Assembly (NCBI GenBank): GCA_003024785.1
Contig: PUQB01000056.1
Coordinates: forward strand, 544,501-608,500
Direction: 5' to 3'
DNA from: Selaginella tamariscina
Taxonomy: Eukaryota > Streptophyta > Lycopodiopsida > Selaginellales > Selaginellaceae
Length of the DNA: 64,000 nucleotides
Under the pieces are notes generated by a model, which saw nothing but the letters and a program-made list of their open reading frames with translations, had not been told where the DNA came from and made no database searches. Within the stretch, counting starts at the first letter, position 1; each line of letters starts with the position of its first letter. A program made the position numbers and the translations under genes. Shown one piece after another: positions 15,641-64,000 of this stretch.

Positions 15641-15648
15641 TATATATA

Positions 15649-21846: not shown

Positions 21847-22255
21847 AAAAGTTTACAGGAGGTAAATGTGTAAATTCACTATAGCAAAGTTTAGATTTTT
21901 TATTTTTTTTAAAAGTATTAAATAGTCAAACAATCATTAATATACTTGACCAACCAAACATTACACGTCAGCTTTACACCCATAAAAATTGCATGATGAA
22001 GTTTTCTATTATATTGTAGTGTGTGTTTGTTCGATTAAAACTTAATATATGCACTTTTTCAACTTAGCACTTTCGATATTACTCATTTTTAAATAGAATT
22101 TGTACGAACGAATGTTTATTAAGTCAATGTATGCTTTTGACCTTGAGTTTGATTTGTGTGTGTGCGTGTGCGTGCGTGCGTGTTTGGACCATTTCTCGTG
22201 TTACATATGCAACTAAACTGTTAGAATACTCTTTCTTGCCCTTTCAAGAAAGAAA

Positions 22256-24031: not shown

Positions 24032-24065
24032 GGCATTCTGTGTAAGTTATTTTGATATTTAAATG

Positions 24066-24067
<2 letters not shown>

Positions 24068-24114
<47 letters not shown>

Positions 24115-36860: not shown

Positions 36861-37005
36861 AAACATTATGGATATACAACATACTTTATTTTATAATTAA
36901 TATACATAAAAAATTTAGTTAATCTTAAGTTTATTAAGTCACTGACCTTGAGTTTGACTGATGTGTTGGCGTGCGTGGCTCTTTCTTGCCCTTTCAAGAA
37001 AGAAA

Positions 37006-38739
37006 ATGGTAAAGAGATTAGATTGGAAACGCTTGTTTGTTGTAGTCTTATGGGAAGGAGGCTCAAGCTACGATGCGTGGCTAAACATTGCGTCGACCAG
37101 GGTATCTATGTGTATATGTGTACGCGTGTGTGTGTGTGTGTGTGTGTAGTGTTTAATTTCGTTTTTTTTTTCCTGCAGGTTGTTCAGATACTTATTGTTC
37201 TACCATATTCATGGTCACAAGCAGGACTACCTTCCACAATTGTGTACCATTTGGCGTTCCTCTTCATGGGATATTGGACTGGTTTAATTATTCACATTTT
37301 ATATATGAAGTATAGAGAAGCACATTTGCACTCTGATAATCGCAATATCCAGGTACTACTCTCTTGTTTAGTATTTAAGTACATTATTGATCTTGTTTTG
37401 AAGCTTCATGAGGTGCTTGGTGCCTTGATGGGCAAATGGTGGAGAAGAGCATCACTGGTATTCAATGTCTTGAATCTCTTCTTTGTTTGCACGTTTGAAG
37501 TTTTCGCCTCTAGCAAGTGAGTGTGTGCGTGCGTGAGACACACACACACACACAGGCCTAATAATTTGACTGCAGTATAGCATATCTTATTAATGAGAAT
37601 CTACCGAAGAGAACATGGACCTTGATAATAGGAGCACTCTCTTTTCTAACTATAACTATAGAGCATGGTCATTTATCGGAGTTATTTCAACTGTATACAT
37701 TTCATGTTACCTAGCTATTGCTGCAGGAGTTCATAAACAAGTAAGTCTTTATGTAATTTAATTACTTATGGTTATTTAGTTTATGTTAAATGAAGGTTTT
37801 ACATGTGAGAAGGCCTCTTGCTCCTCCAAGCTCTCGAGAGTACTTCACAGCTCTTTACTCTTTCATAGGACTGGGGACTGAGTTAATACCAGTGTAAGTT
37901 TATATGTTATTTATATTTAACACTGTTTAATAAGTCTATTTAATACTAAATAACTGTATGTTATACTAAATACTCATATTTATAGGGAAATTATGGATGC
38001 TATGTGGAAACCGAAGAGGTTTAAAACTCCTTGGTTGTACGGGACACTGTACGTGGTTTTAGTAAGCTTACCAAGTGTCACTATGGTGTTTTGGAGGTTT
38101 GGAGATGAAACACTCACTCATATATATGCATTAAGTTTACTACCAAGTTCAAAGTTTAGAGACGCTGCAGCAATTCTTTTACTTTTACACCAGGTAATTA
38201 ATATATTTAATGTAATTAACTACATTATTTAAGGCTTTATTTCTTTTGTAGTACATAGTTACTGGGATATTGGCCCTCCCAGTGTACCTTATATGCGAGA
38301 AGTTATGTGGGGTGCATTCTGCGAGTTTCATCAAGAGAACACTAGTGAGGGTACCAGTTTTTATATTAATTTGGCTAACTGCTTTAGCGTTCCCATTTGT
38401 TCCATTTTCTACTCCCATAGCGATATTTGGAGTTTGGTCGTATTATATACTTCCTTGCTCTGCATATATTGGTGTATTTTGGAAACAAGGTCAATCGACT
38501 TCAAACCATGTAAGTGTGTGTGTGTGTGTGTGTGTACGCATGTGTATGTGTATGTAACTTATGGTTAACAGGAGGATAAGCCTTTCTCTAGATTAAACTG
38601 GGAAGTGGTGTTTAGTGTTAACCTTGGAATTATACTGTGGATGCTTATTATGAATGTAGTGGGACTGTGGACAAACTTCATGAGCTTTATGAAGGGACTA
38701 GAACATGGGAATATCTTTACAAGGTGTTATCTATGCTAA
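37006..38739 (+). CDS. LAX: AUX1/LAX auxin influx carrier, copy 2, one 19-bp deletion
   Basis: Proton-coupled auxin importer of the AAAP family. Exons: 37006-37101, 37179-37352, 37404-37516, 37576-37740, 37796-37893, 37986-38193, 38252-38509, 38572-38739, all GT-AG. Signatures in order: VLWEGGSSYDAWLNIAST, YSWSQAGLPSTIV, VLGALMGKWWRRASLVFNVL, INENLPKRTWT, YFTALYSFIGLGTELIPVEI, MDAMWKPKRFKTPWLYGTLY, LLPSSKFRDAAAILLLLHQ, YLICEKLCGVHSASFIKRTL, FTRCYLC at the end. Compared with Arabidopsis AUX1 the N-terminus is about 30-40 residues shorter; an in-frame ATG at 36961 is an alternative start. Exon 4 has lost 19 bp near 37650 relative to copy 1, shifting the frame inside a membrane span. Apart from that it is intact. 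Confidence 0.93.
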
Positions 38740-38946
38740 GACATTCTATGTAAGTTATTTTGATATGTAAATGTTCATATTATTATGTATTATTTCTGAA
38801 TACACACACACACACACATTGTATACATAAATATTACTATTATCACTCGTGTTGCAAAATGTGATAATACTTTATATAACATTAATAATAGGACGTTTCA
38901 TTATTATTATTAAGGGTAAAATTTACTATTTTAAATTATAAGGTTT

Positions 38947-40549: not shown

Positions 40550-42640
40550 GTTTTCCAGTTAATGAACTTATTATAATTATAATGAAGATTGAAAGTATGG
40601 TGAGTGTGTACAAAGTCCCAGATATATTTAAGATGAATATGTAAGTTAAAACTGTATATATGTAGAAATTGCAGTAATTCCGGGGCATTTAAGATAGCAT
40701 CTACAATATTAATTAATTTAGGATGGTCGTCGATGAGGGATTTAAAAACCATTCGTTCGATATGATATAATAAGGTTATTGAATACGATGTAAAATGATT
40801 ATTAATGAGGGCAATTTTATAATTGGTTGGTTAATGTATAAAATTGGTAGTTTATGAGGCAATTTTTTAAAATGACTGTTTAATCAAATTTAAGATGATT
40901 ATTAATGGAGCATTGATAATAGATACATATAAAACTTATTATACAAGATATCAATTGTCAATGGATCCACATGAACATAATAAACTTAAAATATAAGATT
41001 GTATAATACACATTACTTCAAAAGTTTTTATATATGTTCAAGTGCATACACATGAACATGTATACATATACATATATATTAGCATACATATTACAACACA
41101 TCTATAATTAAGTTAATTCCTTATTGATTCAAGGATCTCTAAATAATTAAATCGTAAAACATGTGTTAAAAACCATATTTCCTTCTTTTATATAAAAGAA
41201 ATTATATGGTTGTAGCCTTTGAATTGTTATGGTTTATATTTGCGTTATGTCTATCTTTACTTAAAATTAATTATCCTTGATGTCTGAGGATATTTACAAA
41301 GTATGTATAACATTGTAATATAACTATGTAACAAACTATTTAACAAGTCATAAACATATTCTTGACAATGAAGACAACATTTTATGAAGTGTATAGACAT
41401 TGTATAAAACTATAACAATACCATGCAAGCTTCAACATATTAAATAGTTCTCCCTATGTAAGACATACTTTTACAAAAATCTTGAACAACATAATTAATA
41501 GGTTTCATTTTTAAAACCTTGACAAGTATACACTTATAAGGAGTTCACTTTAATAGTACATGTACTTATTTAAAATTGTGGTATTATTAATAAAAAATGG
41601 TATGTGCATAATGGTTTTCTCCTTCTTTAGGCGTGTGGAATTGGCAATGTTAGTTTTTAAATATTAAAGTCCTTTTCTTAAACCCTAACAAAAAGGCAAG
41701 TATATTTTGTAAAATCTGACCTTTCTCATTAATTAATATATATACAAGTATATATTAATTAGGATATAAATAACATTAATTATATAATTATATAATTTAT
41801 TATTAATAACTATTAAACTATATATTAATATAATTTATTATATTAATATGTAGTTATAATTATTTACTCTTAATTTTATTTAATTAACATTGAATTATTA
41901 ATATTATAACAAATTATTAATTAATTTAACTAAGACCCATAAGTGAGTCTAATCGCATGTACTACACATACACCTTTTGTACAATTTCGTATCATATAAA
42001 TTCTCATACAAGTATATTACTTAATTCACAATTTTGTTATAAACATAATGAAAATAATCATCCTTATTATCAAAGATATTTATAAGTCTAATGCATATTG
42101 TGAATGGAACTTTCAAGTTTTTTTTTTTTTTTCCATTTCATTAAAAAAAATAGAAGTCTATGCTTACATATAATGAAATTTAATATGAATAAAAACAACT
42201 TATACTTGATGATCTTCGTGTTTATGTTCAAAATAAGTATAAAGTCTAGAATGATCACAAACGAAGTGCATGCACCAAATATGGGACATGCACTTAGTTT
42301 GTGCCAATTTTGGCCTTTATAAAACTAATCCCTGGTGTGCTTGTACAAGAAGAAGCAAGTGAAATAAAATTGAAGCTTCTTAAATTACATTCAACATTAT
42401 TTGAAGTTTATGATTAATGGGATATAATAAGTAAAGAGACTTAACACCATGAGTTTTGGGCAAGACTTAAGTCTTGCCCTTGCAATGCAATTAGTGATGT
42501 AATACTTTCATATTAAGTGATTAAGATATTCACATATTCAAAAAATAAACATGTGAAACATGAAAATTTCAACAAGCTTGTTTAAATACAATAATAATAA
42601 TAATATCTACAGTTTTAACTTAATGCGATCGATATTGGAG
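40550..42640. other. AT-rich spacer, no gene seen
   Basis: Non-coding AT-rich DNA. The frame at 42104-42322 begins at a poly-T run and shows no domain. Confidence 0.6.
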
Positions 42641-42649
42641 TGTACCTTA

Positions 42650-44397
42650 TCACCACCTAACCAGCAGCAACACGTAGGACGTCCTGTTGACCATTAGGTC
42701 CACGTGCTGCCACTCTGAGTGCCACGTCCCTCTAACAGATGTGCTGGCCGGGCATGTTGGAACTCCCTTATGTAACTCTGTATGTTACCTGGGTTAAACC
42801 TTGTAACCAAAACATGTCATTAGTTTAATACATGCAATTATTACTGAATATATGTTCTGTGTGTGCACGTATGTATCTCACATGAGAGAGGGACATATAT
42901 GTGTCTGTGTAGCACAAAAAATAACAAGTTATCTGTATATTTACATCTCTCCATATATATATAGAGAGAGGGGGAAACTCACAATACAAGAACTTGGAAT
43001 ATAAACACATCTATATATATGATACATGCATTGTAGATAAACACGCGTGTGTGTATATACAGGTATATATATGTATATATATAATTTACCTTTCCTAGGT
43101 TTAGCACACAAGACGGGGACAGTCTCGTCCCCGTCAACAAAATTTACACCGCCCTTCAGAGTCCCCCTCAGCAGAAGCGTTGATCCTAAACGGAATATAA
43201 CACGTGTCGTTGTGCGATGAAAGCTTGTAAACGTACGACCTCTCCGTTAGTACGCCCACTCCATACATACAGAATATCTCCATATCCGGTGCATTAGGCA
43301 CAATCGGTACATATATTGTATATACTATCTATGTAATACACGTACTACGTGTATATTTGTGTGTCACACACGCGCGCGCACGCACGCACACAACTTGCGT
43401 GGATTGAACCAATATTTATAATGGGATCCGAGAGATCGTCAGCAATAACATAGCCCCAATTAGAGTCAGCGCGTTCCATCATACGTGAAGCTAAATAAAA
43501 CATTTTACATATTAAACAAATTAGTAATCCAATTAACGTTTATACATACATATAAATGTTTACTAATAGTATACACATATCTATATGTGCACACACCAGA
43601 CATAAATATATATATTTGCTAAATATATACTAGAATAAAGCTATATTTTTATACTTGTGTATATATATACTGACATTATAAACTTGTATAATGTTTGTAT
43701 TCTAATCATGTATACATTTACTAACGGTATAAACTACAATTTATTCATTGTAGATGCGGTATATAATTTGCCATCTGCAACTGATTGTACACTCTCCCAG
43801 CTCATTTCATGGTATTCTGTCTACACGTCGCCACAGGATACGTTCTCCCTTACAGGTGTTTGCTTATCTATATTCTGCAATAAAATAAATGATTGAAACA
43901 AAAAATACTCCTAATCAAGTTACATATTATACATTGCGATTGTCATATCACCAAGCACATGGAGAGAGAGAGAGAGAGAGAGATTCCTTAGTGCATGGTA
44001 GAGTCAAATAATAACATATACTCCCGTTTCTGAAATGCTCAATGCTTTGCTACCCAACCTTCGGAGTCAAACAATTAATACTATAAATAATTTTAACTAT
44101 AATATATATATAAGACAACTTATATGCATATACAATTACGTATGTATGTAATATCGTATATATTACTATATATATTATTTGATTAAGCATGAATTATTAC
44201 ACACAAAATATTTAGACACTTTATTGTATAGTTATATACATATAGCTCAACTTATAATTTGTACAAATAATAATTTATTATAATTATTAGATATAAATTT
44301 AAATATTTATTAAGAATATACCTTCATCGCCGCCACCTCCACCGTGAGAAACACATTTTATGTAATTTACACTCATCCGCACGCTCACCACACAGAG

Positions 44398-44462
<65 letters not shown>

Positions 44463-44506
44463 CTGTTTCATTATCCAGCCTCGTATGTTCCAGACAACAT
44501 AAGGGC
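42650..44506 (-). pseudogene. PDAT: PDAT (phospholipid:diacylglycerol acyltransferase), 3' two thirds, degraded
   Basis: PDAT transfers an acyl group from phospholipid to diacylglycerol, making triacylglycerol at the ER. Minus-strand exons: 44506-44463 (PLCCLEHTRLDNETG), around 44350-44322 (HGGGGGDE), 43848-about 43750 (TEYHEMSW, ADGKLYTA), 43490-43395 (SRMMERADSNWGYVIADDLS), 43304-43090 (VPNAPDMEIFCMYGVGVLTE, RSYVYKLS, VNFVDGDETVPVL), 42799-42650 (RFNPGNIQSYIREFQ, LLEGRGTQSG, then VDLMVN). The catalytic Asp region (VDGDETVP) is recognisable. Damage: a Trp codon became TAG in the 43.8-kb exon, frameshifts occur near 43150 and 42705, and splice sites at 43305 and 43750 are not canonical. The catalytic-Ser exon (PHSMG) is not seen. 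The 5' part lies on the other strand at 50179-55370. Confidence 0.85.
44399..44460. repeat. (TA)n(GA)n microsatellite
   Basis: About 10 TA units followed by about 20 GA units, in an intron of the PDAT 3' fragment. Confidence 0.95.
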
Positions 44507-44823
44507 CTACATTTAAAACAATTACTCTTGATATGTATATATATACATACATTACGTAAACATGTTATGCTGAAAAAGAAACTACATACCACTCTAGAGG
44601 CAAAATACGTGTGTATGTGTGTGAATCACAACATTTTTAGTTGCATATAGATACAGAGTTAACTTAGAAACAGCTCGAATGTTCCTAAACATAAAAATAG
44701 GATGCTTTTACTGTAGACTTTTCGTATATATTTTAGATACACACGTGCGCTTTGAAAAATATATACATATAGAAGAAACTAGAACATACATATATATTCA
44801 ACTATCTAATATAGATGAATGAG

Positions 44824-44826
<3 letters not shown>

Positions 44827-44903
<77 letters not shown>
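44827..44903. repeat. (TC)n(TA)n microsatellite
   Basis: About 20 TC units, a short interruption, then about 13 TA units. Confidence 0.95.
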
Positions 44904-44905
<2 letters not shown>

Positions 44906-44909
44906 TCAC

Positions 44910-45045
44910 ACATATATATGTATGGATACGAATGTGTCTTATAGCATATATACACTAGATATTCACATATACCTAACAGCAGCCACACACACGTACACGA
45001 CAAAAAAGTATATAGCCATATCACAATTGCATTCATATATGAACA

Positions 45046-45082
<37 letters not shown>

Positions 45083-46270
45083 CACACACTAGTTTGACAT
45101 ATGTAGTTTCTGTTGTGTATTTTGTTTGTATACATAAATTTTTCTTGTTATTATGCTAATTAATTATAATAAAAATAATAAATAATTTCATAAACTTTAT
45201 AACGTAAAAGGAAAAATTAATGTATAAAATGTATTTTCACTGGCAATAATAATGATATGTACTTTATTTAATTGATTTTAAATATTTAAATAAGCTACTC
45301 ACATCATTATTTAACTGATTTATTATAACAAACATATTTTATTAAATAATAGGAATTAATATAAGATTTGCAATTTATTCTATTTATTTAATATAAGCTG
45401 TCGTGTTTATTCATTTTAATTACAAAAGTATGTATTATCTTAGCAATTCATGCTACGCAATTAAAAATAATGAAATATATCTGGTTCTTTGAACTTTCAC
45501 GTAAAGTTCAAAGACTTTATAGTATATAATAATTAAAATAAAACCTACATTTTTACTAGAAGGGATAAAGCATTTAAACTGAAATTAATCTGATTCATTA
45601 CTTTAAATTAAATTAATAAATTAAATAAATATAAAATTATTTTAAATGAATATAGATATAAATCACATATATTATTTAGATAATGTTTTTAAAATAATAA
45701 ATTTCAAAAAGAGTTTGACCAAGGGTTATACTCTATTATATGCATCTCGCATTATGTTATACCATTTGTTGCATAATCCAATAGAACTTTGCCTGCTGCT
45801 TGAATTCAAATCACTGCTTCATTATCCCTCACGTCAGCCGACACTAGCTCGGTTCTTTTGTGAAAACCAAATAAACCAGGTCGAGAGAGAGAACATGGAA
45901 GATTTGCCAAAAACATGCAGAACATGGCAGAGGGAGTGTGTGTGTGTGTGTGTGCGTGCGAGAGAGAGAGATATGCTAGTTTATATCAACTTTAGTTGGT
46001 TTGTGTGTTTGGTCCTTGCGTGCATGTCCATCTGTCTGTGTGTAATCACACTTATAAGAAAACCCTCTTCTTCGTTTTGTAGAATGGTGCTACTTTGTAC
46101 TTAAGAACGTGCTTGTGTGATTTAGAAAATACACACATGCATAACAGTGATAACAAATATTAACACACACACACACACACATTAAAATAGTTTTAAAAGT
46201 AAAATTTAATAGAATTAAAGTAGCTCATGTCCAAAATAAGTAAAATAAAGAAAATCACGTCCAATATAAA
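44910..46270. other. Spacer, no recognised gene
   Basis: AT-rich with a (TA)n run at 45049-45079. The open frame 45646-46104 has a less AT-rich middle (QVERENMEDLPKTCRTWQ) but turns into (GT)n-coded CVCVCV, and I cannot support it as a gene. Confidence 0.45.
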
Positions 46271-48109: not shown

Positions 48110-50178
48110 AAAAATCTTTAAATAAGTAAAGAATGAATTATATTAAAAACTATAAATACTTTAATTAAATATTAAATAATTGTCTTGTAATTTAATTTAA
48201 ACATAAACTTTTATTTGTTTTAAAAACAAGACATATACCTTAAAATAAATCAAGCATTTCAGCCAGTAAGTTGTTACATATATGTGACTCACAATATATT
48301 ATATACGATGTAAACTATACCATATAGCTAAATAAATAAACCTTAATCTGTGAAATACACATGTATATACTATTAATACTAAACAGTAATAATATTAAGT
48401 TTAATAATAATTACGATTGCAGGTGTGTATAGAGAAGAGTGTATAAACTTCTCTAGAAAAAAGGTTTGTACACACACACACATATATACATATATGTATT
48501 ATAGTTGTACTTACAATCAATGTTGCAGCCTGCTTTGCAATGCCAAGCAAAAGCTCAAGCTTATGTCGACTGTATACAAAAAGCAGCAAAATCGACGGGT
48601 TCTTGAAAATAAATATAATTAATAAAAGAATTTTCTGATTTTTGTTTAATTATAAATTTGGGAAATTTTCACATATACCCCTGAAATTTACATATACATA
48701 CCTTTATATTTACAACATTTCAAAATTAAAAGTAAAATATATATTTTTTAAATCAATACAAATTTATAATTTTATTATATTTAGGTCCAAAATCAACCTA
48801 TTGCACATATATATCACAATATAATAAAATTATTTTAAGAAATAAGCCATTTCCTAACATTTCTTACTATGACATTTTACATTTAATACTTAATAAGATT
48901 CAGTTTATATATATTATTAATTAAATATATATTTTTAATTAGTATTATTATTTTAAAAGTACATATTGTGTCGTGATGCTTTTCCCTGTTCTCAACTATT
49001 GAAGGTTTTAAGGATATATATATATGTAAATTTAAAATATTTAGAAAGGTATATATGTATATGTAAATATAATCAATTTTAGGTGACTAAATTTTATATT
49101 ACAAAATGCTGAATTAATGTTGTATTTATTGGATTTAATGAGATAATGTAATATGTTTAAGGGGTATGCAAATTCATATTAAATAGAAAATTTAAATTAA
49201 TATATTAATAATGTTTATTATACCCTATATATAGTTTAGGGTTTAGGGTACATTTTTTTGATGAGAAAAGTTACTTGGTTTTATAATTAATCCTTGGGTC
49301 AAACTTATTGTAATTTATTATTTAAAAACATTATTAAATAATATATGTTATTTATATCTAAACTATTAAATTCATTTATGTATGTGATATTTATTTAATT
49401 TAAAATAATAATTTCCAGTTAAAGCTTTATCCATTTGAGCTAGGTTTATTTTAATTATATACTATAAAGTCTTTTGAAAATTCAAAGAACCTTATATATT
49501 ATTATTTTCAATTGCACAACATGGTAAAAGAATTAGTTGATATTAAGATAATACATATTTTAAAAAACTGAGTCCAGGTGGCTTTAAAAAACCCAAATTG
49601 ACCTTAATCAGCTACACACACGCCCACACACATATTGTTTAAAGTTAAAATATATAACACAAATGATAAATATATTATTTAGAGTTAAAAATATATAACA
49701 TTGCATGATTATTAAGTTAATTAATGATAAATTTGATTCAAGGCTAATTTGGGCATTTTAAGAAGAATTTGAAAATTATATAAAACTAGAGGGTCAGTTT
49801 GATAATTTTCCCTACATATTTTTATAAGAGAAATGAATAACACAATCAGTTTATATTAAATAAATAGAATAAAATACCATATAATTAATTCCTATTATAT
49901 ATTTGTTAATAATAAATCTATTAAATAATTAGTTAAAAATTATATACATTAATTTTCCCTTTTACGTTAAAAATATGAAATTATTTTTATTATTATTAAT
50001 TAGCATAATAACAAGAAAAATTTATGTGAGTTTAATAAAATAGGTTTTATTAAAATAACATAATGATATAAATTTAATAAAAAGGCTTAGAACGGGAAGG
50101 CAATCAGTGATTCAATGCGCAAATATTTGGTAAATAATTAGTAAAATATTTAGTGGGTTTTAGCGGGTTTTCTACAAA
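48110..50178. other. AT-rich spacer upstream of PDAT 5' fragment
   Basis: No gene seen. Contains a telomere-like 'gtttagggtttaggg' at 49236-49250 and dispersed AT repeats shared with 15.5 kb and 28.2 kb. PDAT's promoter should lie at its right end. Confidence 0.55.
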
Positions 50179-50252
50179 ATGCTCAGAAAGAGGGAGAACA
50201 ATGAAGAAGAACGCGCAGATGTGATCAAAATCGGGAAATCAGGGGATGGGAT

Positions 50253-50419
50253 GTTACAGAACACCCATTTATTCATCTCATCACCGACTTAAAAACTAAG
50301 CCCCTTCTTCTACCCAGTCTCAGTCCCCAATTAGAATGTGGAGAGATCATCTACCTCTCCCCTGCCGACGTGGTGGAGCCACGTGGAAGAGAGAGGGAGT
50401 CCACGATGTCCCTCCAACA
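50253..50419 (-). repeat. Copia 3' LTR
   Basis: Begins TGTTACAGAAC and ends TCCAACA on the plus strand, matching 54600-54773 almost exactly but lacking a 7-nt segment near its inner end. A purine-rich tract lies just inside (rc GAGTGGGAG). Confidence 0.95.
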
Positions 50420-53400
50420 CTCCCACTCAGAGTGGAACTCACTCTGGCAGGGGTAAAACTCCGAGAGCAGTACGGTGCTGCTCGAAGCGATCTCGAGGAA
50501 GAGGCTTGGTGAAGATATCCGCCACCATGTCGTTTGTCGGACAGTAGACTAGTTTAATGTAACCGTCTTCAGTCTTCTCACGAACTAGGTGGTGTACCAC
50601 CTCAATGTGCTTCGTCCGGGAGTGGAAGCGAGGATTTTTGGAGATTGCCAGGCTCCCCAAATTATCAGTGTAGATTGTAGTTGCGTCCTCCTGCGTGAAG
50701 CCAAGATCCGCAACTAACATGCGAAGCCAAATGGCTTCCTTGGTGGCTGCTGAGGCAGCCATGTATTCAGCCTCCGTGCTAGAGGTCGCCACTGTGGATT
50801 GGCGCTTGCTGCTCCATGAAGTTGCAGCACTGCCAAGGCCAAATGAATAGCCTGTGGTGGAACGCCTATTGTCTGGATCACCTGCCCAGTCAGCATCACA
50901 GTATCCAACGAGAGTGGGCTGGACCCCTTCATAGCAAAGGCCGTAATCGAGGGTGCCTTGGAGGTAGCGGAAAATCCGCTTCACAGCTGCCCAATGTGCC
51001 ATGCCAGGATTATCAAGAAATTTGCTGACCTGGCTGACAGTGTAGGCGATGTCAGGTCTGGTGCAGATCATGGGGAACATCAGGCTCCCCACTGCGCTCC
51101 TGTAAGGAATGTTTGTCATTGCTGCTTTCTCAGCATCAGTGCTTGGGCACTGCTCCATCGATAGCTTCAATGTGTGTCCATGGGAGTTGCCACCGGATGG
51201 CAACTCTCCATCCCATACTTGCGGAGAATGTCTCGTAGGTACTTACCTTGGTGTAAATGAATCAACTTCTTGTCTCGGTCACGAACAATCTGGATGCCAA
51301 GGCAGTACTGGGCCTCACCAAGGTCCTTCATCGCAAAGTGGTTGGCGAGAACCTCCTTCGCAAATGGTAGCAGTCGGCTGTTCTTGCTGCTGATGATCAG
51401 AAGGTCGTCAACATACACTGCTATGAAAACGAAGTCAGCTCCCACTCGCCGAATGTACACATTGTGGTCGCATTGCTCCTAGAGAAGCCAGCTTGAAGGA
51501 GGAACTTGTCCAGTCGAGTGTACCATGCACGTGGACTTTGTTTCAACCCGTACAATGACTTCTTGAGCTTGCACACAGCACTCTCATGTCCAGGAACTTG
51601 AAAACCTTCAGGCTGCTCCATGTAAATCTCCTCTTCCAACTCCCCATAAAGGAAAGCTGTTTTTACATCCATTTGGTGGATTTCGTAATCCCCAACTGCT
51701 GCTAGTGAGAAGAGTAACGTAGGCTGGTCATTTTTACCACAGGAGCAAACGTCTCTGTGAAGTCGATGCCAGGAACCTGTGCACATCCCTTGGCCACAAG
51801 CCTAGCTTTATACCTAGCAATGGTGCCATCAGCATGAAGCTTGAGTGTGAACACCCACATGCTTTTGATTAGCTTGCGGTCCATTGGAACCTCCTCTGGT
51901 GCCACCAAGTCGTAGGTCTTGTTCTCAGCCAGGGATCCAAGCTCCTCCAAGCATGCTGCATGCCAATGCTCTGCATCCGGTGACGCCTGTGCCTCTCTCA
52001 GATTGGAGGGTACTCTATGCACGACCTGTGCATGTAGGAGCATGGTCGTGATGAGTCTGTCAGGTGCCTTGCGGGTGCGAGCTGGTTGCATGCGAGGTGG
52101 AGGGGGTGCCTTGCTATGCCGACAAGTCGTCGGCCCTGTACTAACTGCGTTTAGGGTTGTGCCAGGTGAGGAAGCTTGAGCTGCAGGGTCTGTTGTAGAA
52201 GCGCCATGTGCTGGAGTTGGTGCAGCATCAGTGCCGTGGGAAGCTACTGGAGGATGGTGACTCAACTCCCATTGGTTGGTTGCACTTGGAGCAGATTTCC
52301 ACGCCTTCTGGAGCTGAGTCCAATGGCGAGGTTTCAATTGTCCGTGAGTACTCACCAGGTCCAGAGCTGGAAGAAGCTCCGTGAATTGTTGAGGAGTCCT
52401 GATGGTAGCTGAGCAGGGGCGTTCGTTGAAGACCACATCCCTGCTCAAAATCGGTTTCCTGGCAATAGGATCATATAGCTTGTAGGCTTTCTATCTGTGC
52501 AGTAGCCCAAAAAACGACATCGGATGCTCCTGGCATCAAGCTTTTTGAGTGACGAGTCATCAATGGCGTGGACATAGGCCTCACAGCCAAAGATCTTCAG
52601 TCCTGCTACAGATGGCTTCCTACCAGTCCAAGCTTCATGTGGCGTCATCCCTTTCAATGCTGAGGTTGGTAGGCGATTTTGCAGGAAGTTGGCGGTGTGT
52701 ACTGCTTCTGCCCAGAACATTTGTGGGAGTTGGCTTGTCTGGAGCATGCTCCGTGCACTCTCCATCAACGTCCTATTCTTCCTCTCTGCCACGCCATTTT
52801 GTTGTGGTGAGTTGGTTGTTGTTAGCTCCCGTGCAATGCCAGCTGACTTGCAGAATTGGTAAAAGGCATTGGAGGTGTACTCGCCACCACCATCGGAGCG
52901 TAGACGTCTCAGCATCTGACCAGTCTGGGTGCTACCCATGTGTAGTACAACCGCATGTAATCCAGGGCTTGTGATTTTTCTCGAAGGAAATACACGGTAT
53001 AGTAGCGACTAAAGTCGTCCACAAAGGTCATGAAGTAGCGAGCGCCAGCGTAGGACTGTGTTTGCATCGGCCCACAGAGGTCTGTGTGCACGAGCTCAAA
53101 CACTCTAGTCGCCCTGGTTGCTCCGCTGCGAGGAAAAGCTTGGCGAGGCATCTTTCCGAGCTGACATCCCCTACAAAACGACAGTTCCCCAGTGGGGGGA
53201 ATTTTAGTCCTTCTACCATCTGTTCTCGTACCAACTGAGCAATCCGTGAGGTCGCAGCATGGCCAAAACGTTGGTGCCACAACTCTAGCTCCTCAGTTTG
53301 ACCTTGAGTAACTAGAGCTTGCGGTCTGGGGGAGTTGGGTCGAGCTCCATCTCTAGCTTATACAAGCTCCCACTGCCATCACGATGTGCATGCAGTGCTG

Positions 53401-54585
53401 GTGCACGTCCTGTCTGGGGTGTGAAGGAGATGCGAGTGCCATCACCATGAAAGGTGTAGCCAGCATCGCAAAGCCGCCCAAGTGCTAACAGTTGGCCTGA
53501 AGTTCAGGGACGTAGAGCACATCCTTGATCTGCACCTGGTGTCCACTCAGCAAGGTAAGACGAATCGTCCCAGATCCTAGTATAGGAAGAGGGCGTCCAT
53601 CTCCCACTAGGACATGTTGACTAGGTGAAGTTGCTTCGAAGATCACGTACCAGTTGCGGGTGTTAATGTTGTGTGTTGCTGCTGAGTCCACATAGAAGGT
53701 GTGGGGGTTCTTCACCACCACAAATGTATGGACCATGTACATTGCTACATCACCAACGAGTAGAGCCTTGCCACGCTCATCATCAGGGCCAGGTTTGAGT
53801 TCCGGGTGTTTAACCCAGCACTTTGTTTCCTCATGACCTTTCTTCTTGCAGTGAGAACACTTCACTTCGCCTTGGTGAGCTAGATGAGCTGGTGTCCTCA
53901 TTCTGTTTCCCCTTGCGCACTGCCGTGAAGAGGGCGGTGCTTGGCTGATGCTCCGTGTTCTTTCGCCGGGTATCAAGGTCTTGCAATGCCGCTTGGACCT
54001 CAGCCAACTTGAGTGGAGTAGTTTGGCAACCTAGGGTGGAGACGAGTGAGTCGTACGAGGGGGGAAGTGAGCACAGGATGTACTCGCACTCCTCAGCCTC
54101 GTCCATAGTAGCTCCCACTCCTTGGAGGGCATCCAATATGGCTCTTACCTTGCCGACATGATCAAGGAGAGAGTCTCCCTCAGTCATAACGGTGTTGAAC
54201 AGCTTTCGCTTGAGGTAAATGCGGTTGCTTGCTCGTGGAGCCTCGTACGTTGCCTTGAGGGATATCCAGACTTCGGCAGCACTTTTACAGCGCACCACTG
54301 TCCGGAACTCGCGTTGCTCGAGGGCTTTGAATAATTTACCCTTGGCTTTGCGGTCCTTCTTCTCCCATGCGGCTACGTCGATAGCAGGAGTTGTGGGCTT
54401 GGCTTCAATGCCAGACACGATCTCCCAAAGCTCCAAGTCTTCGAGGTAGAGTTCCATCTTCACCCCAAAGGTAAAACTCTTGACCGGTGAATTTGGGTGG
54501 TGGCGCATCCATGACAACAATCTGCTGCACTGCCGCCATTTGCCCAGTGTCCTTTGGAAGGAGAGCTTGAGACTCTGCCATCACT

Positions 54586-54599
54586 CTACTCCGATACCA
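54586..54599 (-). promoter_or_regulatory. Copia primer-binding site (initiator tRNA-Met type)
   Basis: On the minus strand the sequence next to the LTR is TGGTATCGGAGTAG, close to the TGGTATCAGAGC complementary to the 3' end of plant initiator tRNA-Met. Confidence 0.85.
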
Positions 54600-54773
54600 T
54601 GTTACAGAACACCATTTATTCATCTCATCACCGACTTAAAAACTAAGCCCCTTCTTCTACCCAGTCTCAGTCCCCAATTAGAATGTGGAGAGATCATCTA
54701 CCTCTCCCCTGCAGACGTGGTGGAGCCACGTGGAAGAGCCATGTTAGAGGGAGTCCACGATGTCCCTCCAACA
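54600..54773 (-). repeat. Copia 5' LTR
   Basis: The upstream LTR relative to the element's own minus-strand transcription; directly followed on that strand by the primer-binding site. Confidence 0.95.
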
Positions 54774-55027
54774 TGGGAAACATGGGGATGGGAAGCATGG
54801 GAAAGCTGCGGGGATTCCTGTGAGAACGAGGGAGAAGCCAAGATGGAGGTGTCTAGATACTGTATATGTGTGTGTTATGGTGGCTTCTGTTGGTTTGTAC
54901 AATGCGATCCCTTCACTCCCACAATATGTCACTGAGGTAATACACACACACACACATATGTGTATATATGCATATATTGTGTATACAACAGAAACTACAT
55001 ATGTGCATTTGTTATAAACTACTATTA

Positions 55028-55060
<33 letters not shown>

Positions 55061-55370
55061 GTATATATTGTTATGCAATTGGAATGTGGCTATCTATATG
55101 GATATACTTCTTTGTCGTGTATGTGTGCGTATGTGTGTCATTACATTATATCAATACCTTTTGGAGATTGTCATATGTATATTATATAGATCTCATAGCC
55201 ATTATATATATTTGTATGATCAATATGTCTACTTTTTCTTACATATAGGCAATTACGGGGCCATTACCAGAAATACCGGGGATTAGGCTCGCTAGAGAGG
55301 GATTACGTGCTAAACACCCAGTTGTATTTGTACCTGGGATTGTTACTGGTGGTTTAGAGCTGTGGAAAGG

Positions 55371-55431
55371 TTTTTTGTTGTGCAGATCTCAAAAGGGTTT
55401 ACAGTTTTTTTTTGTTGTGCAGATCTCAAAA
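55371..55431 (+). repeat. 24-bp direct repeat at the PDAT breakpoint
   Basis: TTTTTTGTTGTGCAGATCTCAAAA occurs at 55371-55394 and again at 55408-55431. The first copy starts right where PDAT homology stops. The second ends in a plausible acceptor (tgcag) leading into unrelated coding-like sequence. Confidence 0.85.
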
Positions 55432-56460
55432 TACTTGGTGGAAGTGATGAGTGAGATCTCGAAGAATACTATAAGAGCGGAAAGGTGTTCACTCGAGTTT
55501 TCTGCAGTTGTTTACGTTTTCTTCCAATGCATTGAGGTCGAACCGAAGCTCAGAAGTCAAAATCACTGGATATGATTTCATTTATAACTTGTATGGATTA
55601 ACACATCTATTGCCAATCCAAAGTGAACAAGTTTACAATCTCTTACAAAATTTAAAAATATAACGTCAAACTCCTTAATACACCGTGTTAATTGTATATT
55701 TTTCTATGCAGAAACTAATTCAGCAAGTTTAGAACAAGAAAAAAACGTTTAAACATTTCTAATAAAAGAAAATATTTAATTACCTTATTTCAAACTCTTT
55801 GCTCATTGTATCTCCCATGTACATGATTTCCTATATTACATTGGTCAAAATCAATTGCTAAGTGAAAATCTTGATGTGTTTACAATTGGATTGGCGACAT
55901 GTTAACTCTCTCAGGTATCCAATCTCTATACATGTATCTCTCTCGTTTGTGGTATTTTTTGTTTCTCCCCTCGTGTTTTTGGGATGCATTGATTCTGAAC
56001 CTAGAAGAAGCTAAAATTGGAGCTGAGAAAGTGATTGTTGATCTAGTAAGTTTATAGTTTTCCGTCTCTTTGGTAAATAACAAAAAAAACTTACGACATC
56101 ATCTATATTATGTTATTATGACTTAATAACCTTTTTTTATCAGTACATATCTTCGAAATTGCGAAGTTTATGTACGAATGTGTCATGAGTTTGATACGAT
56201 TTCTGATGAAATGGGTAAAGGGCATGAACAAATATGTGCATCTTTCTCTATCTATCTATCTATCTATCTATCAGTGTGTATGGGTGCGGCGTATAATCTT
56301 TCACGTCGGTTTTCAGACTACACAAGTGATTGCTTTGATTTGGGCCCTCTTTGTCAGGCAAAAAGATGAACATATTCCCGAATGTTTCAGTTATAAGGGT
56401 GTCTCCGTTGTAAAGTGTGTAGTAGTTATTTGCCCTTCAACGCTGGGGAAAGAAGGTAAG
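55422..56460 (+). other. Exon-like blocks of an unrecognised gene
   Basis: Three coding-like stretches: 55422-55575 (KYLVEVMSEISKNTIRAERC, YVFFQCIEVEPKLRS), 55985-56050 (LNLEEAKIGAEKVIVDL) and 56300-56457 (FQTTQVIALIWALFVRQKDE, CVVVICPSTLGKEG before GT). They have ordinary amino-acid composition and some flanking splice-like signals, but frames differ. I do not recognise the protein. They may be a gene fused to the PDAT breakpoint. Confidence 0.35.
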
Positions 56461-56629
56461 ACTCTTTGACATGTAGTGTATGTGTGCGTGCATGTGATGT
56501 GCTTCTGTTCATCTAGGTGCATAAATGGCTGGGACAGAAAGGCTGAAAGCCCTTTGTCTTTTATTGTAGAAAGGTGATAGAAGTTGACTGTTTTTATATA
56601 AGCATGATATACGAGTACATCAAAATATT

Positions 56630-56959
56630 CTACAAAAGTTGTCTATCATACTCTAAAATGGTTAATAGGCGAACCAGAGACTCTTGGACTTCAAGAAGGA
56701 TAACTTTTGTCCTCTCGTAATCACTTCTTACGAGACACTGAGAAGGCACTAGAATGTTATTACTTCTTCCAGGCCCGAGCTTCTCATATGTGATGAAGCC
56801 CATCGGCTCAAAAAGCTGGTAAAGTTCCTCTTTTTGTGTGTATGTGTGTCTATCTGTCCCTCTTCCTAACCAATACACAGTGCGTGTAAGATGTATGAAA
56901 CTTGGGTCTGAGCTAACAAGTTCTCTTACAGTAAAGGCAACAAAACTGATAAATAACAT
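56630..56959 (-). CDS. Unrecognised coding fragment, C-terminal exon(s)
   Basis: Minus-strand frame with non-repetitive composition: FVAFTVRELVSSDPSFIHLT, ELYQLFEPMGFITYEKLGPG, RSNNILVPSQCLVRSDYERT, VQESLVRLLTILEYDRQLL, stop at 56630. A short intron probably lies at the (CA)-rich stretch around 56830-56850. Upstream it abuts the Ty3 LTR starting at 56965, which may have truncated it. Family unknown. Confidence 0.45.
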   Translation of the reverse strand: MLFISFVAFTVRELVSSDPSFIHLTRTVYWLGRGTDRHTYTQKEELYQLFEPMGFITYEKLGPGRSNNILVPSQCLVRSDYERTKVILLEVQESLVRLLTILEYDRQLL

Positions 56960-56998
56960 GTACTTGTCACGACACGACGATACGTGATGCAGAATACA

Positions 56999-57172
56999 GG
57001 ATATGGGTTACAGGATATGCCTATAGGATATACCTACAGGATATGCCTGTAGGATATTCCTATAAGATATACCTACAAGATATGCCTATAGGATATACCT
57101 ATAGGATATGCATGCAGGATATTCCTACATGATATGCCTATAGGATATACTACAGAATATACCTAGAGGATA
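56999..57172 (+). repeat. 13-bp minisatellite inside the Ty3 LTR
   Basis: About 13 head-to-tail units of consensus GGATAT(G/A)CCTATA, each with one or two changes. Located in the U3 part of the LTR, about 65 bp upstream of the TATA box, where transcription enhancers of LTR elements usually lie. Confidence 0.92.
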
Positions 57173-57561
57173 AGGGTCATTATTTTTAGCTCATGACCAG
57201 ATTAGACTCATGACTAGATTAGCTTGGAGTTATGAGTATAAAAGTTCCGACCTAATTGTTGTATAATTAGTTACTATCAACACCAGTCTTTCTACGATCA
57301 ATCTTGTCTTGTCTTGCTCCTTGCCTCCTGCTCTTGTCTTGTTCCTGGTTCTTAGTTCATGTCTTGCTCCAGTTTCTGTCCTGCTCCTTGTCTTGCTTCT
57401 GAGTCAAGCTTTCTTGTTCTCGGAATCCTGTTCACTTCTTTGTTCCTGAATCATGGCTTGACAGTTTGATAGTAACTCCTTTTATAGCTTTCCGATTTCC
57501 AGCTATTTTTTTTTCCTTGATTCTTCTCCTTCATTTTCCTCCCTTTTTTTTTTCATAGATC

Positions 57562-59138
57562 ATGACCGATTTTGAGCAATTTCAACGTGAGCACCAAATA
57601 TTGCTTCATGAGCTGGCCACTTTGCGCCAAGTGGTCACAGATCTGCAAGGTTTCACCAACGCGGCACATGCAGTTGCTGATGCATCCTCCAAGGTTGTGC
57701 AGGCTCTCTCTCAAGAATCCGTGGTTTCCTCTTTATTGAACACTTCTTCGGAGCCGAAGATCAGCATGTCGGAAAAGTTCAATGGCAATCGTGCCGATTT
57801 CCAAGGGTTCCTGAATCAAATCAGGCTTTTGATCCGCATGCAACCATGTCGCTACTCGACTGATGCACAAAAGGTTGGCCTTTTGGCATGGATCTCCATG
57901 GGCTTGGGTTGCCCCTTTGCTAGAGTGTGATGACCTGTTGATGGAAGACTTTGAAGGTTTCGTGGCTGCCTTTGAAGCTTGCTTTGGAGATCCCGATAAG
58001 TACTGTTCCACATGCACGAAGTTATGAAAGCTCACACAAGGATCTCAACCAACTTCTGTCTATACATTCAAATTTCAACAACTTTGCACGAACATTCCAT
58101 GGACGAGACTGCATTGATTGAACACTTCCGTTTGGGTTGAGGATGACGTGAAGGACTTCTCCTTACGTTACCGGATGCCCAAACATTAGCGGAGATCATG
58201 CAACAGGCCATTCTGCGACAACCACTTGTTCGAACGCGTCAAGAAAAATCCCGTCAACAGTTCCTGCAAACCAATCTGCAGCTGTGGTACATACTCCTGC
58301 AACACCTTCTAGAGTAGTTCCTAGGGAGGTTGAGAAATACAAGCGTGGCTCACTTTCCGCTGCTGAGAAGCAACGTCGCCGCTGTGAGAATCTATGTTTG
58401 TATTGTGGTGAAGCAGGACACAAGGCGGCGGAATGTCCTATTAAAGCCAGGAAGTTCAAGACGCGTGAAGTTGAAGCTGAAGTTCAGTCGGAAAACTTCA
58501 ATGTTCTAGGAGCCACGAAGTTGGACATGGGTGCAGGCTCCATTGGTGCTGCTCATACCATTCCATCACTCAAGTTTCCTGTACACATTCATCTCAATAA
58601 TCGAGAGCTCAAGGAGTTTGCGCTATTAGACACTGGTGCAAATGCATGCTTCATGGATGACACTTTTGCAACTCAACATGGCATTCCGGTGGTGAAGTTG
58701 AAGCGTGAAATTCCTGTAGAGGTGGCTAATGATCGTCTGATTGCTTCTGGCGCAGTTACCCATGTTACCAAACCTCTCTCTTGCAGTCATGGCGCATTTA
58801 ACTGTTCGATTTCCTTTAACTTGATCAAGACTCGGTCGACTCCCATCATTTTGGGCATGCCATGGTTCGTTGTTGCAAATCCTCAGATCGACTGGAGGTC
58901 TAGGACGCTCATGTTTTCCTTTTCAGCAACTAGGATCAATCCTGTACCTTCCTCTGTGCAGGATACATCCTTAGTGTCTGAGGTAGTACAAGCTACAGGA
59001 TTGACCGTGCCTGTTCCTATATCAGTGTTGAAGACTCCTCCTCGACAGGATTCACCTCATGTGTCAATTCCTCAGCACATCCGCATCTCCCTTCTTCAGC
59101 ACTTGCAAGGTCATGTACTTAGGGTTTTCCAAACTTAG
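57562..59138 (+). CDS. Ty3 gag-protease polyprotein, frameshifted, C-terminally truncated
   Basis: Frame 57562-57930 encodes a coiled N-terminus (REHQILLHELATLRQVVTDL) and the start of a retrotransposon gag domain (KFNGNRADFQGFLNQIRLLI, RYSTDAQKVGLLAW). A one-base shift gives WVAPLLECDDLLMEDFEGFV and FEACFGDP. The frame at 58284-59138 has a CCHC knuckle (CLYCGEAGHKAAECP) and a retropepsin domain: active site LLDTGANACFMD and the C-terminal ILGMPWFVVANPQIDW. The gag wording (F.G....F.GF.NQ.RL, ACFGDPD) resembles Sushi-ichi/Tcn1-type chromoviruses known from fungi, vertebrates, mosses and lycophytes rather than common seed-plant gypsy gag. Frame breaks near 57895, 58020 and 58140-58283. Confidence 0.88.
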
Positions 59139-59618
59139 CCTTAGGGAGTTTGCTTAGTAGAACACTCATGTCCACCTACGACCCTCACTAAGTACTAGCC
59201 CTAGGTCTAAGGTATGACTTGGCCACCCAAACCCTTAGGGGTTAGTCGTGGTTCAGGGTACCTCTTGTCGCCCTAAAGGGGTTGTACTCCCGGATGAGGG
59301 TGATTCCTCAAGGGGTAAGTGACAATGCCTTAGCTCTATCACGGGGGTATGTGTGAGACACATCTCCTTTGTGGGGTTAGGGCATGAGCCTGTCTAGGTC
59401 TACTAGGACATGATCCTAAAGTCTACTCGGGTTATCCTCTAGGGTTTAGGGGACTTAGGGTAGGACTTTAGTCTTTTGCCTAATTCGGCCCCTGAGTCAA
59501 ATTCTTAGGGTTATCTTGGAAGACTTAGCATTGCTCACATAGGGTGATGATGCCGAATGGCCACTTGGCAGCCATGTTTTGCCATGTGTTGGCCCTTTGG
59601 GTTAAAACTCTAACAAAT

Positions 59619-59630
59619 TGGTATCGGAGC
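59619..59630 (+). promoter_or_regulatory. Primer-binding site, initiator tRNA-Met type
   Basis: TGGTATCGGAGC three bases after the LTR end; one mismatch to the standard plant TGGTATCAGAGC. Confidence 0.88.
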
Positions 59631-62600
59631 TATTCTTTACAGTCAGTAGGACTGCTTAAAGTGTGGTGTGTTTTAGGCTTTAGTTAGTTTCTAAATTCTT
59701 GAAGTACTCTATCACTTTCGGCTAACGTCTGAATTCTGCATAGAGAGTTGGTCCTGAGATTTATAACTCTTCAGAGTACACTTACTCCATAAGTGGGTGT
59801 GGGTTATGAACTCCAATGTTGAAGGTAGCACTTGGAAGGCAACTTCCAAGTTGTAGGCCAGGTTACTTTACCTTATGGATGTTCATGTTACTTTACCATA
59901 TACTTCCACAAGACATGGCGTGTTAGTTTGTTCTGGCTTACAAACTAAGTCTTGTGAAGTGAGTTTTATGATATCATAAGTTTACACATTTTGAAAATTT
60001 TTCTTTTTCTTTAAGGTGTTTGAATTTGGGATAACACATGATTTGAGAATGTGACTATGTCAATTGAGTTTTGACTTAGGTCAAGATTCAATATCGAGTC
60101 CAACTATAGTGTTCAAATGGGGAAAGACTTATGTTCAAATGTGTCTTTGACTTTGGAAAAAGGGGCATATTCAAACATAAGAGGGAACACTACATTTTGA
60201 CATAAAATGTAAAATAAGCTCTCATTATAGTGCATGTTTTAGAGTGTAACTCCAGAAGCAGACTATGGTGATGAACTTATAATATAACGAAATGTCAAAT
60301 ATTAACATATGATGAATATGTTAAGCAGTTGGTTCTTAGATCCAATGTAATCAAAGTATTGTCCAATGTTTGTAATATTTTGATGATGTTAGCTACAAGT
60401 AACATTAGGTGAAATAATTTACTAAGTTCAAGTCACCTGATTTGAACAAAGTACAACTTGAAACCTTAGTTAGTTGTAAGCGCGCACTTTGTATTCAAGT
60501 TAGCTAGCTCGACTAACTTGATTATGAAGTTGTGTCTCATATAGGATCAATGAGAGAGATTTGGGATAACATTTTAAGGATTCTGCTTTCTTATCGGTAC
60601 AGTTTCACGTAGATGGAGTGATCTATCAAAAAGAGTAATCTTGGAAACATATGTTTACATTTTCAGTTTTTTGAGTAATGAAGAACTTGCATAGTGAAGG
60701 CGTTCGGCGCACACTTGTGCATTTTCATTGTTAACTCTTTAATCTTGAAATCTATAATGTTGTTTGTAATGTGAGGATAAGCTCTTGAACAAGGGTGATT
60801 CCTTGCTTAAGAAGAGCATGATTTGGGATTCTCCACTCTGCTTATTGACTAAATAAGGAAACTTGCTAAGTTTAATAAGTTATGTGGTGGTGTCAAATGA
60901 GTCGGAAGCTAGTTGGGTATACATTTTGGAGGTTTAAGTGCATGTACCTCTTCAGAGAGTCGGTATTTAATAAAATTAGAAGTTGATATTGGTTTTCAAT
61001 ATCAATATCATTTTTTGAGTCGAATACGATTATTCAAAAGACGGTTTCTTAATTTTGCATCATGGTTGCAAATGTGCACACCCTAAGAACTTATAAAGTA
61101 AGTATCTTCAGTTCTTTGGAATATCAAAAAAATAGAACTATTCTTGACTAAGGTTTGATTATATTCCTTGGGTTAGTTATCGGTTCTATCTCAAGGTTTG
61201 ATGGTGTTCTTTGAGTTTGGTTCAAAAATCCTTGAAAGTGAGATATCCAGTGGTTAGATTAGTTCAAGAAGATGGTCTCCCTTCTTGATGATTGTGATAC
61301 AATGTCCCTAACGTATGGTCCAATATCTGGTACAAAATATGAGGTTTCCTATCACCTCATTCATTAAGATATTCATATCTTAGACTTTGGAATATTTGTG
61401 ACAGTCTTTTAAGATTAGTTATAAATGACTTGTCAAAGTATGGTATGATATCTCCTCAATATTGAGTTCAGAGCGTTCATATCGGAACTTGATTATGATC
61501 ACATGAGGTGGCCATAATCATAAATATAAAGACTCAAGCGGATCGGAGTCCTACACTTTGGTAAGGCATTACTTTAGTGTTGTAACTTGAAATATGTTTT
61601 CAAGTTAGTTGAGAAATGAAGCGTTTCTCAATACATTACTTGAGGAGCAATGTGGTACTCTGATAATTGCTAGATGTCTAGAATGAATAGTATATTTTAG
61701 TTCGATGTACTGAACTAAATATCTTATTCATGTTTGGGGAGATTTGTTGAAGTATAAGATATATTAAAACATGAAGTTACTGTGGCACTTTGGTGTCATG
61801 ATAACATTAGTGTGGAAAAATGATATCTTACTAAATCAGTTAGAGAACTAGACACTAGTTTATGATTCCTTTTAGTCTTTAATAAAGTTCCTCGGAATAC
61901 TGTTGTGACATTATATTTCCGTTTCAAAACTGAAGTTCGATTCATGTAAACTAAGATTATGTCTATATTATAGTTGTAGTATTTCGATAGATTGATATGA
62001 TTATAATTTTATATCCACTAGTATAACAACTAGTTGATAAACTTAGGATTTGAACGTTAAAACGATCATTATCCATTTGAGAGTATCAATATCGAAATTG
62101 TGACTATTTATAAAATAAGGATTAGTTTTAAAAGATGTTTATCAAAACACTAGTTGCTTCAATTAGTGAAAATGTTATACTTCGGTATATGTTAAGAAAC
62201 ATTTACATAATCAATTTGAAGAGTTGGACATGAATATAATGTTACGAAGGCGTGCAGTATTCTAAGTTTAGAGAGACTCTTATTGTGGAAACTAAGTTTT
62301 AAAATTCGGTATTTTTAAACTTAGTGAGATAAAGAGTTATGAAGTATTGAACGGCATCTAGTATGATGTGCTTTTTGGGGAATGATACAATGAGAGTGAC
62401 AATTAAGAGATGTTATCTAAAGGTCATCGATTGAAGCACAAGAGATGGGTTGAATTTCCTGATTTTACATTGGTTTGTATGAAAGGTATGTTAGCTTATC
62501 TAGTCCCTGAACTAGTCAGTGTTATGAAAGAGTACAAAGTCGGTTGCCAAAAAGTGAATATTAGTGCTATTACACTTGGTAATAGATTTGACTTGAATTT

Positions 62601-63639
62601 AATTTCCATTGGGAATGAAGTTATGTAATGACACATCAAGTGGATGGGTTAATTTTAAGTTGGCATGCGCCTCTGTGATCGCCTCTAGCCAGATTGACAT
62701 GTTTACAAAGAATAGGGTTTGAGAGAAGTACTCTAGCATGGAAAAGAGCTCGATTCCAATAAAAGTCTCATACCTAGTTTGGCGTAACTATATACTAAAG
62801 GGGGATAGGTATAGTAGCAAACCCTTATGTAAAGGGGTAATGAGAAACACGAGGGATGCAGAAATGTGAAGTTATAAAAACGTAACATATAGAAATGTGG
62901 AACCATTGGGAAATTAAAGAAACGAGAAGGCGTTTGGTTAAGCACTTGAGATGGACATCAAAGTGCTTATTGTGTGCTAAGACGGCGGCGTCAACAATAA
63001 GTGTTTGACATATAAGGAATAAAGCAAGTCTTTATTTCTTGTTAACCAAGGGCCGGCAACAACACTAACTAGAGGCCTCCAATATAAATTCTAGTTAAGT
63101 AAAGAAATTAACTAGTGTTTGTGCGTCGAGTGACAGACTTTGCAGACATGCAAAAGGTCTCCAGGTGACTTCATGTCGTAGGTGGTGCCTCCAGCAGCTG
63201 GGTTTACGACTCAGTGAACAACAGTTCTGGAGTATTTGGTTTCGCGTAATGCAAGGGGGATAATAAAACTTATGTGAACTTTTGGCGATATGTTAGTTTT
63301 GGTTAATTTTTATAACATTATCTAGTCTTGGAGTGAGACGTCAATGAGGACATTGACATTTTCAAAGGCGGGAGTGTGTCATAGTTTTTATGTGCACTTG
63401 GGTATTTGGTGATGGTCCGGCCGGGTGTCATTAGGTATTTGTAGGAAACTCTAAGCGAAGCTAGAACTTACCTTTTAGAAACCCACCCCCAATTTTGACA
63501 TCCCAGTTAGGCTATGTAGATGAGTTCAGCGTGTTTAGTAGGGTTTAGGAACACCCCTAAGAGTTAGGCTAAGTTAAACACTCTCTCATTAACTTAATAA
63601 GGGGCTAGCTAAATTTATGCCAGCCCACATACACATTCA

Positions 63640-63681
63640 GGAAAAGAGGGGAGGGGGAGGGGAGGGGGGGGGGGGGGGGGG
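63640..63681 (+). repeat. G-rich tract, potential G-quadruplex, in LTR
   Basis: Runs of 4, 5, 4 and about 20 guanines separated by single adenines. Satisfies a four-run G-quadruplex pattern. The older LTR relics lack it. Confidence 0.9.
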
Positions 63682-64000
63682 CTCCGTCACATAAATAAGG
63701 TAGAGTATGTAGGAGTGAGGGTTCCTGGGTTCATGACTGAGCTTGTTACTCTTCCCGGTGTAAGCTCTAGCTTGTGTCGTCAAGGCACAACCCTTTGTTG
63801 TGCCACCCTAACTTCCAGATGATAGGGGTACGTCTCACCTTTAGGGTAGCTTACCCTTAACGTTGGCGAATCCATGCTTGGGAGGTTTTGTTGGGATGCA
63901 TGATCCAAGAGGCAGAGGTTGAGGCTTGTTTCTAGCCTCCTCCTCCACGTCAAGCTGGGTGTAGCACTCATGGCTAAGCAAGGCACATCTGTGTCCTTGA

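Follow-up and report, generated by a model that had tools for sequence, protein, structure and literature searches.

Ty1/copia elements (Pseudoviridae) encode gag, with integrase before RT, between LTRs that begin and end TG..CA, and their integrase makes a staggered cut that leaves a target duplication. Plant PDAT1 (phospholipid:diacylglycerol acyltransferase), of the LCAT family, has an N-terminal membrane anchor followed by YVTE..ITGPLP..HPVVFVPGIVTGGLELWKG. Duplicated, fragmented pseudogenes with nested transposons occur in plant genomes. As for gene structure, one report gives six exons for most of its PDAT genes, including AtPDAT1 (PMC6530137).

We analyzed a window of 64,000 nucleotides, the whole stretch of DNA under study. 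The copia element found there has the family's domain order, its TG..CA LTRs and a 5-bp target duplication, and differs in its short LTRs (168 and 174 bp) and frame-broken coding region. The PDAT sequences share with PDAT1 the anchor, the motifs after it and, in a minus-strand relic, an LCAT match, whereas every copy in the window lacks some exons and the catalytic serine motif is absent. With fragmented plant pseudogenes the locus shares an inverted duplicate, exon loss, a foreign-gene join and a young LTR element on top, and we saw no feature that distinguishes it from them. The titles and abstract openings among the matches listed, in a search that was not species-directed, made no mention of a comparable locus. 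We consider it likely that the locus records a recent, ordinary copia insertion into a 5' fragment of PDAT that was very probably already making no enzyme.

The copia insertion

The element is a copia-type LTR retrotransposon on the minus strand (50252..54773) with a broken coding frame, delimited by LTR alignment and Pfam domains. Its 3' LTR (168 bp) occupies 50252..50419 and its 5' LTR (174 bp) 54600..54773, both on the minus strand and both with TG...CA ends. An exact target-site duplication, tggga (strand not assigned), flanks the element at 50247..50251 on the left and 54774..54778 on the right. With equal base frequencies assumed, an exact 5-mer match at two fixed ends would arise by chance about once in 1000. 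The target being itself a short tandem repeat, two further tggga words lie no more than 30 bases to the right of the insertion, and only the two flanking copies abut the LTR ends. Paired LTRs of this kind, together with the target duplication, place the element in Ty1/copia. Alignment of the LTR pair gave one substitution in 167 aligned bases, plus a 1-nt and a 7-nt indel. The insertion is real and recent. A first-pass annotation had proposed that copia recently entered PDAT exon 1, leaving a perfect 5-bp duplication, and that the LTRs are nearly identical; the exact tggga at both LTR ends and the single substitution bear out the duplication and the recent date, and the near-identity of the LTRs stands for substitutions once the two indels are added.

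The PDAT exons around the element

When one copy of tggga is dropped, the flanks of the element join into a frame that stays open for 77 codons, starting with the ATG at 50179 and ending at the donor that follows 54936, and encodes MLRKRENNEEERADVIKIGKSGDGKHGDGKHGKAAG...LYNAIPSLPQYVTE. With both copies kept, the five extra bases would put the frame out of register. PDAT-like exon 1 consists of a pre-insertion part that starts at the ATG (50179..50251, plus strand) and a post-insertion part with the membrane anchor, ending ..LYNAIPSLPQYVTE (54779..54936, plus strand), the latter covered by a tblastn row and by the match of the joined exons. A gt-ag intron 1, read from the sequence, follows on the plus strand (54937..55248), and after the acceptor ending at 55248 comes PDAT-like exon 2 (55249..55371, plus strand; tblastn, 75.1 bits), which reads AITGPLPEIPGIRLAREGLRAKHPVVFVPGIVTGGLELWKG and runs to GGLELWKG (55371). 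Its end would be 55369 if the GT there serves as splice donor.

We compared the 118-residue joined peptide with a hand-typed Arabidopsis PDAT1 probe and obtained 98.6 bits with 49/80 residues identical, a similarity that makes the fragment a homolog of the PDAT family. Residue 46, where the match starts, is encoded by the half of exon 1 to the right of the element. For the left half, which has no similarity evidence of its own, the link to PDAT is the open frame and the join; the right half is placed by collinearity, its own tblastn row scoring 29.3 bits against a chance level, the best of 20 shuffled probes, of 30.0. A Pfam search with the ORF that holds exon 2 (55249-55575) and a PDB search with the joined peptide each gave zero matches. 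The open join and the PDAT1 match confirm the earlier proposal that the flanks form one open PDAT exon, with 54936 as its end and 54779 as the first base past the second tggga. Chance joining of the flanks can be ruled out, since the PDAT frame is open with exactly one tggga dropped and the product matches PDAT.

The sequence downstream of exon 2

Plus-strand similarity to PDAT stops at about 55371, which corresponds to residue 126 of 671 (tblastn). The search with PDAT1 over the whole window, at an E of 10 or better, returned 17 rows, eight of them from two PDAT relics and the other nine at 22.7 bits or less, under the 30.0 reached by the best shuffled probe. Between 55372 and 64000 on the plus strand, tblastn found no later PDAT exon over chance, and none of the tested PDAT motifs occurs there. 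We take the PDAT catalytic residues to be the Ser in PHSMG, the Asp in GDETVP and the His in HVD. HSMG has zero occurrences in the six frames of the whole window, and the sole GDETVP is at 43132, inside the minus-strand relic. No catalytic motif belongs to the host copy in this window, and with a plus-strand copy that stops at about residue 126 we found no functional PDAT, that is, an N-terminal anchor joined to a full LCAT domain with Ser-Asp-His.

Exon 2 runs into a junction (55371..55431, plus strand) with two copies of a 24-nt repeat, TTTTTTGTTGTGCAGATCTCAAAA, at 55371-55394 and 55408-55431. The second copy reads like the 3' splice site of a RAD54-like gene, and the first may be breakpoint filler. 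Next comes a decayed RAD54-like SNF2 fragment (55422..56830, plus strand), its start placed by eye and its identity firm only at about 56705-56820, where it carries LVITSYETLRRH...ELLICDEAHRLKK. The fragment matched Pfam SNF2-rel_dom (2.5e-06), and its best PDB match was 1z3i (RAD54-like, 9e-06), the next being at 0.088. A hand-typed Arabidopsis RAD54 sequence scored 36.6 bits in tblastn, and none of 20 shuffled probes exceeded 25.8; outside about 56705-56820, tblastn did not distinguish the fragment from chance. The surrounding frames are interrupted by stops.

Between this fragment and the next lies an array of 13-bp units around GGATATRCCTAYA (56996-57164; unit defined by eye). The next fragment, at about 57559-59138, resembles a Ty3/gypsy-type element, a label we apply tentatively. 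Its ORF 58152-59138 matched the aspartyl protease RVP_2 (6e-06), with a zinc knuckle just under Pfam's cut-off; ORF 57559-57930 looks gag-like by eye and had no retroelement match in Pfam. From there to 64000 there is no further ORF of at least 100 aa.

The first-pass annotation had read the insertion as a clear gene-disrupting hit in the key enzyme. This claim is not supported: the host copy within the window consists of exons 1-2 only, followed by the RAD54-like fragment. Some observations count against a stump: without the element, exons 1-2 are open over 118 codons, which fits a copy intact until recently, and exon 2 ends AAAG/GTTTT, a sequence that might act naturally as a weak splice donor. 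They would suit a working PDAT, disrupted by copia, whose long intron 2 contains both the RAD54-like and the gypsy-type fragment and whose later exons lie past 64000. Such a gene would also agree with the position of the GT, right after the last PDAT codons, and with a window that extends only 8.6 kb past exon 2; one of the nine weak tblastn rows, on the plus strand at 63392-63433 (residues 656-669, 20.8 bits), which contains a stop and is at chance level, would be a possible place for its last exon. Against it stand the lack of any later PDAT exon over chance or tested motif in 55372-64000, the matching later exons, which are inverted on the other strand, and the 24-nt junction repeat, whose resemblance to the RAD54-like acceptor suggests a breakpoint with filler. 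We therefore regard a long-intron gene as improbable.

A second PDAT relic and the order of events

The second PDAT relic, which the earlier annotation lacked, lies on the minus strand (42706..44508), 11-13 kb from the plus-strand copy, and was identified by tblastn and Pfam LCAT. Read from 44508 to 42706, it retains in order residues 149-164, 418-463 (with a stop), 470-495, 512-562, 563-about 590 (in another frame) and 593-625, with a stop at about 43823 and a frame change near 43150. Exons 1-2 are missing, as are residues about 165-417; residues 165-417, for which the window gave zero tblastn rows, presumably hold the PDAT catalytic serine motif. The LCAT match (Pfam, 9.8e-08) spans residues 512-about 590 and was obtained with a query that spliced two frames together, and the 593-625 piece had zero Pfam matches. 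Two rows are placed by collinearity: set against the 30.0 of the best shuffled probe, one (470-495) falls short at 28.9 bits and the other (149-164) is barely over it at 30.4.

Blastn and alignment further showed that the flanks of exon 1 (49288-50027 and 54982-55130) have an inverted duplicate at 44985..45728 on the minus strand. Four collinear blocks, 49288-49523, 49813-49929 (detected with a shorter blastn word only), 49939-50027 and 54982-55130, match 45728-44985 in inverted order. The proximal promoter, exon 1 and copia of the plus-strand copy correspond to just 12 bases in the minus-strand copy, between 45132 and 45119, and exon 1 is absent there. In a search for leftovers, five plus-strand pieces were compared with 42201-45300 (minus strand), each against 100 single-base shuffles. 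Exon 1, exon 2 and the proximal promoter did not rise above the 95th percentile of shuffles in this interval. The intron-1 piece 55131-55248 scored 38 (95th percentile 34, maximum 40) and the piece 54937-54981 scored 28 (95th percentile 24, maximum 26); both matches fall off the collinear place and are therefore attributed to chance in AT-rich sequence. For the positive control, 54982-55130, the score was 86 and the shuffle maximum 34. The two PDAT relics keep non-overlapping exons. The 10% divergence in the common blocks and the different exons kept rule out the idea that the second relic is an artefact mirroring the first.

Pooling the common blocks of the two copies gave 57 mismatches among 565 aligned bases (K 0.108), a divergence of about 10% that is roughly 18 times the LTR divergence of 0.6% (1/167). 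This ratio argues that the duplication preceded the copia insertion; it is probably much older, although noncoding rates need not be equal. At an angiosperm rate of 7e-9 per site per year, the 95% interval for the insertion is about 0.01-2.4 million years, wide because it derives from a single LTR substitution. Dispersed repeats upstream of the plus-strand copy, 49626-49807 with 15310-15468 and 48750-49067 with 28231-28553 (66-71%), overlap none of the four dating blocks; the upstream region is repeat-rich.

In the history that we favor, the host copy, of which the window has a 5' fragment of exons 1-2 followed by the RAD54-like fragment, forms one arm of an inverted duplication that is older than the insertion. 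The other arm, on the minus strand, retains later exons, while exons 1-2 and a large part of the middle are gone from it. The host copy was probably already a non-coding stump when copia entered its exon 1, a point that we hold with lower certainty than the order of duplication before insertion. A 5-bp staggered cut would have produced the tggga duplication, and the insertion would then have had no direct effect on triacylglycerol synthesis. Because the relics keep non-overlapping exons, the plus-strand copy could have arisen when the 5' end alone was duplicated in inverted orientation, when the whole gene was duplicated and parts were lost afterwards, or when an inversion split one gene, and such an inversion could form part of the history. 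The nested order of an older duplication and a younger copia element makes up a small datable history, nothing more.

A different sequence of events has PDAT complete and working when copia landed, with exon 3 onwards lost afterwards under relaxed selection. The absence of any other frame break in exons 1-2 agrees with it, but the LTR divergence leaves little time for every later exon to be lost and for the copy to become fused to a different gene; an age near the top of the interval is still compatible. We think it unlikely that the losses came this late, and keep to a copy already truncated at insertion.

The copia coding region and the assembly

Eleven minus-strand ORFs of at least 80 aa lie wholly within the element. 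Two, in other frames inside the rest, were omitted; the remaining nine make up the coding region, with the frame changing at every step, and eight of the nine have a Pfam match. Gag (Retrotran_gag_2, 3.7e-39) is at 54580-53831, integrase pieces at 53292-52445 and RT pieces at 52490-51167, all on the minus strand, and this gag - integrase - RT order is that of Ty1/copia. Among the integrase pieces, gag_pre-integrs (9.4e-09) and SH3_retrovirus (1.1e-14) are above Pfam's cut-off; two rve matches in the element are under it, and Pol_BBD matched at 7.3e-14. RVT_2 matched in three ORFs (5e-15, 6.8e-29 and 2.1e-19), across which profile positions 1-65, 65-149 and 148-242 run on with no loss. ORF 50439-51242 had zero matches in Pfam and, by its look, may be copia RNase H. 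With its nine ORFs, the element lacks the single open gag-pol frame of an autonomous copia.

Broken frames beside near-alike LTRs suggest either a defective copy mobilised in trans or residual assembly indel errors. The frame changes at each of the nine ORFs, together with the continuous RT profile, do look like uncorrected indels and would suit a broader assembly artefact, in which PDAT and RAD54 were misjoined or the element was placed by a chimeric contig. We consider such an artefact very unlikely: an exact target duplication abutting both LTR ends is unexpected from a misjoin, and PDAT copies 10% apart in their common blocks are not a foldback of one sequence. We find it likewise highly improbable that PDAT is complete apart from the insertion, with a very long intron 2, and that the insertion segregates as an allele, which would make it a natural knock-out for acyl-CoA-independent triacylglycerol synthesis in the species.

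The tempting claim of disruption is corrected: the insertion is real, and as far as the window shows its target gene is a stump. Annotation from exons 1-2 or from the LCAT relic could wrongly count one or two PDAT genes here.

Other features of the window

Rfam, at gathering scores, gave 0 matches over the whole window, and a minus-strand piece near 47.3-47.6 kb had zero Pfam matches. Plant resistance-type gene pieces lie on the plus strand, with NB-ARC at 10447-11067 (4.8e-10) and a leucine-rich repeat at 12852-13331 (LRR_4, 2.9e-12). Two reading frames encode PPR proteins, at 2823-3308 (minus strand) and 15508-17223 (plus strand, open over 571 residues), with Pfam PPR matches of 1e-31 and 2.2e-103. 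The window also holds two copies, 22229-24084 and 36979-38790, of a direct repeat about 1.88 kb long, which share 91% identity, and an ORF overlapping the latter copy has a weak Aa_trans match (amino-acid transporter, 4.3e-05) just under the cut-off.
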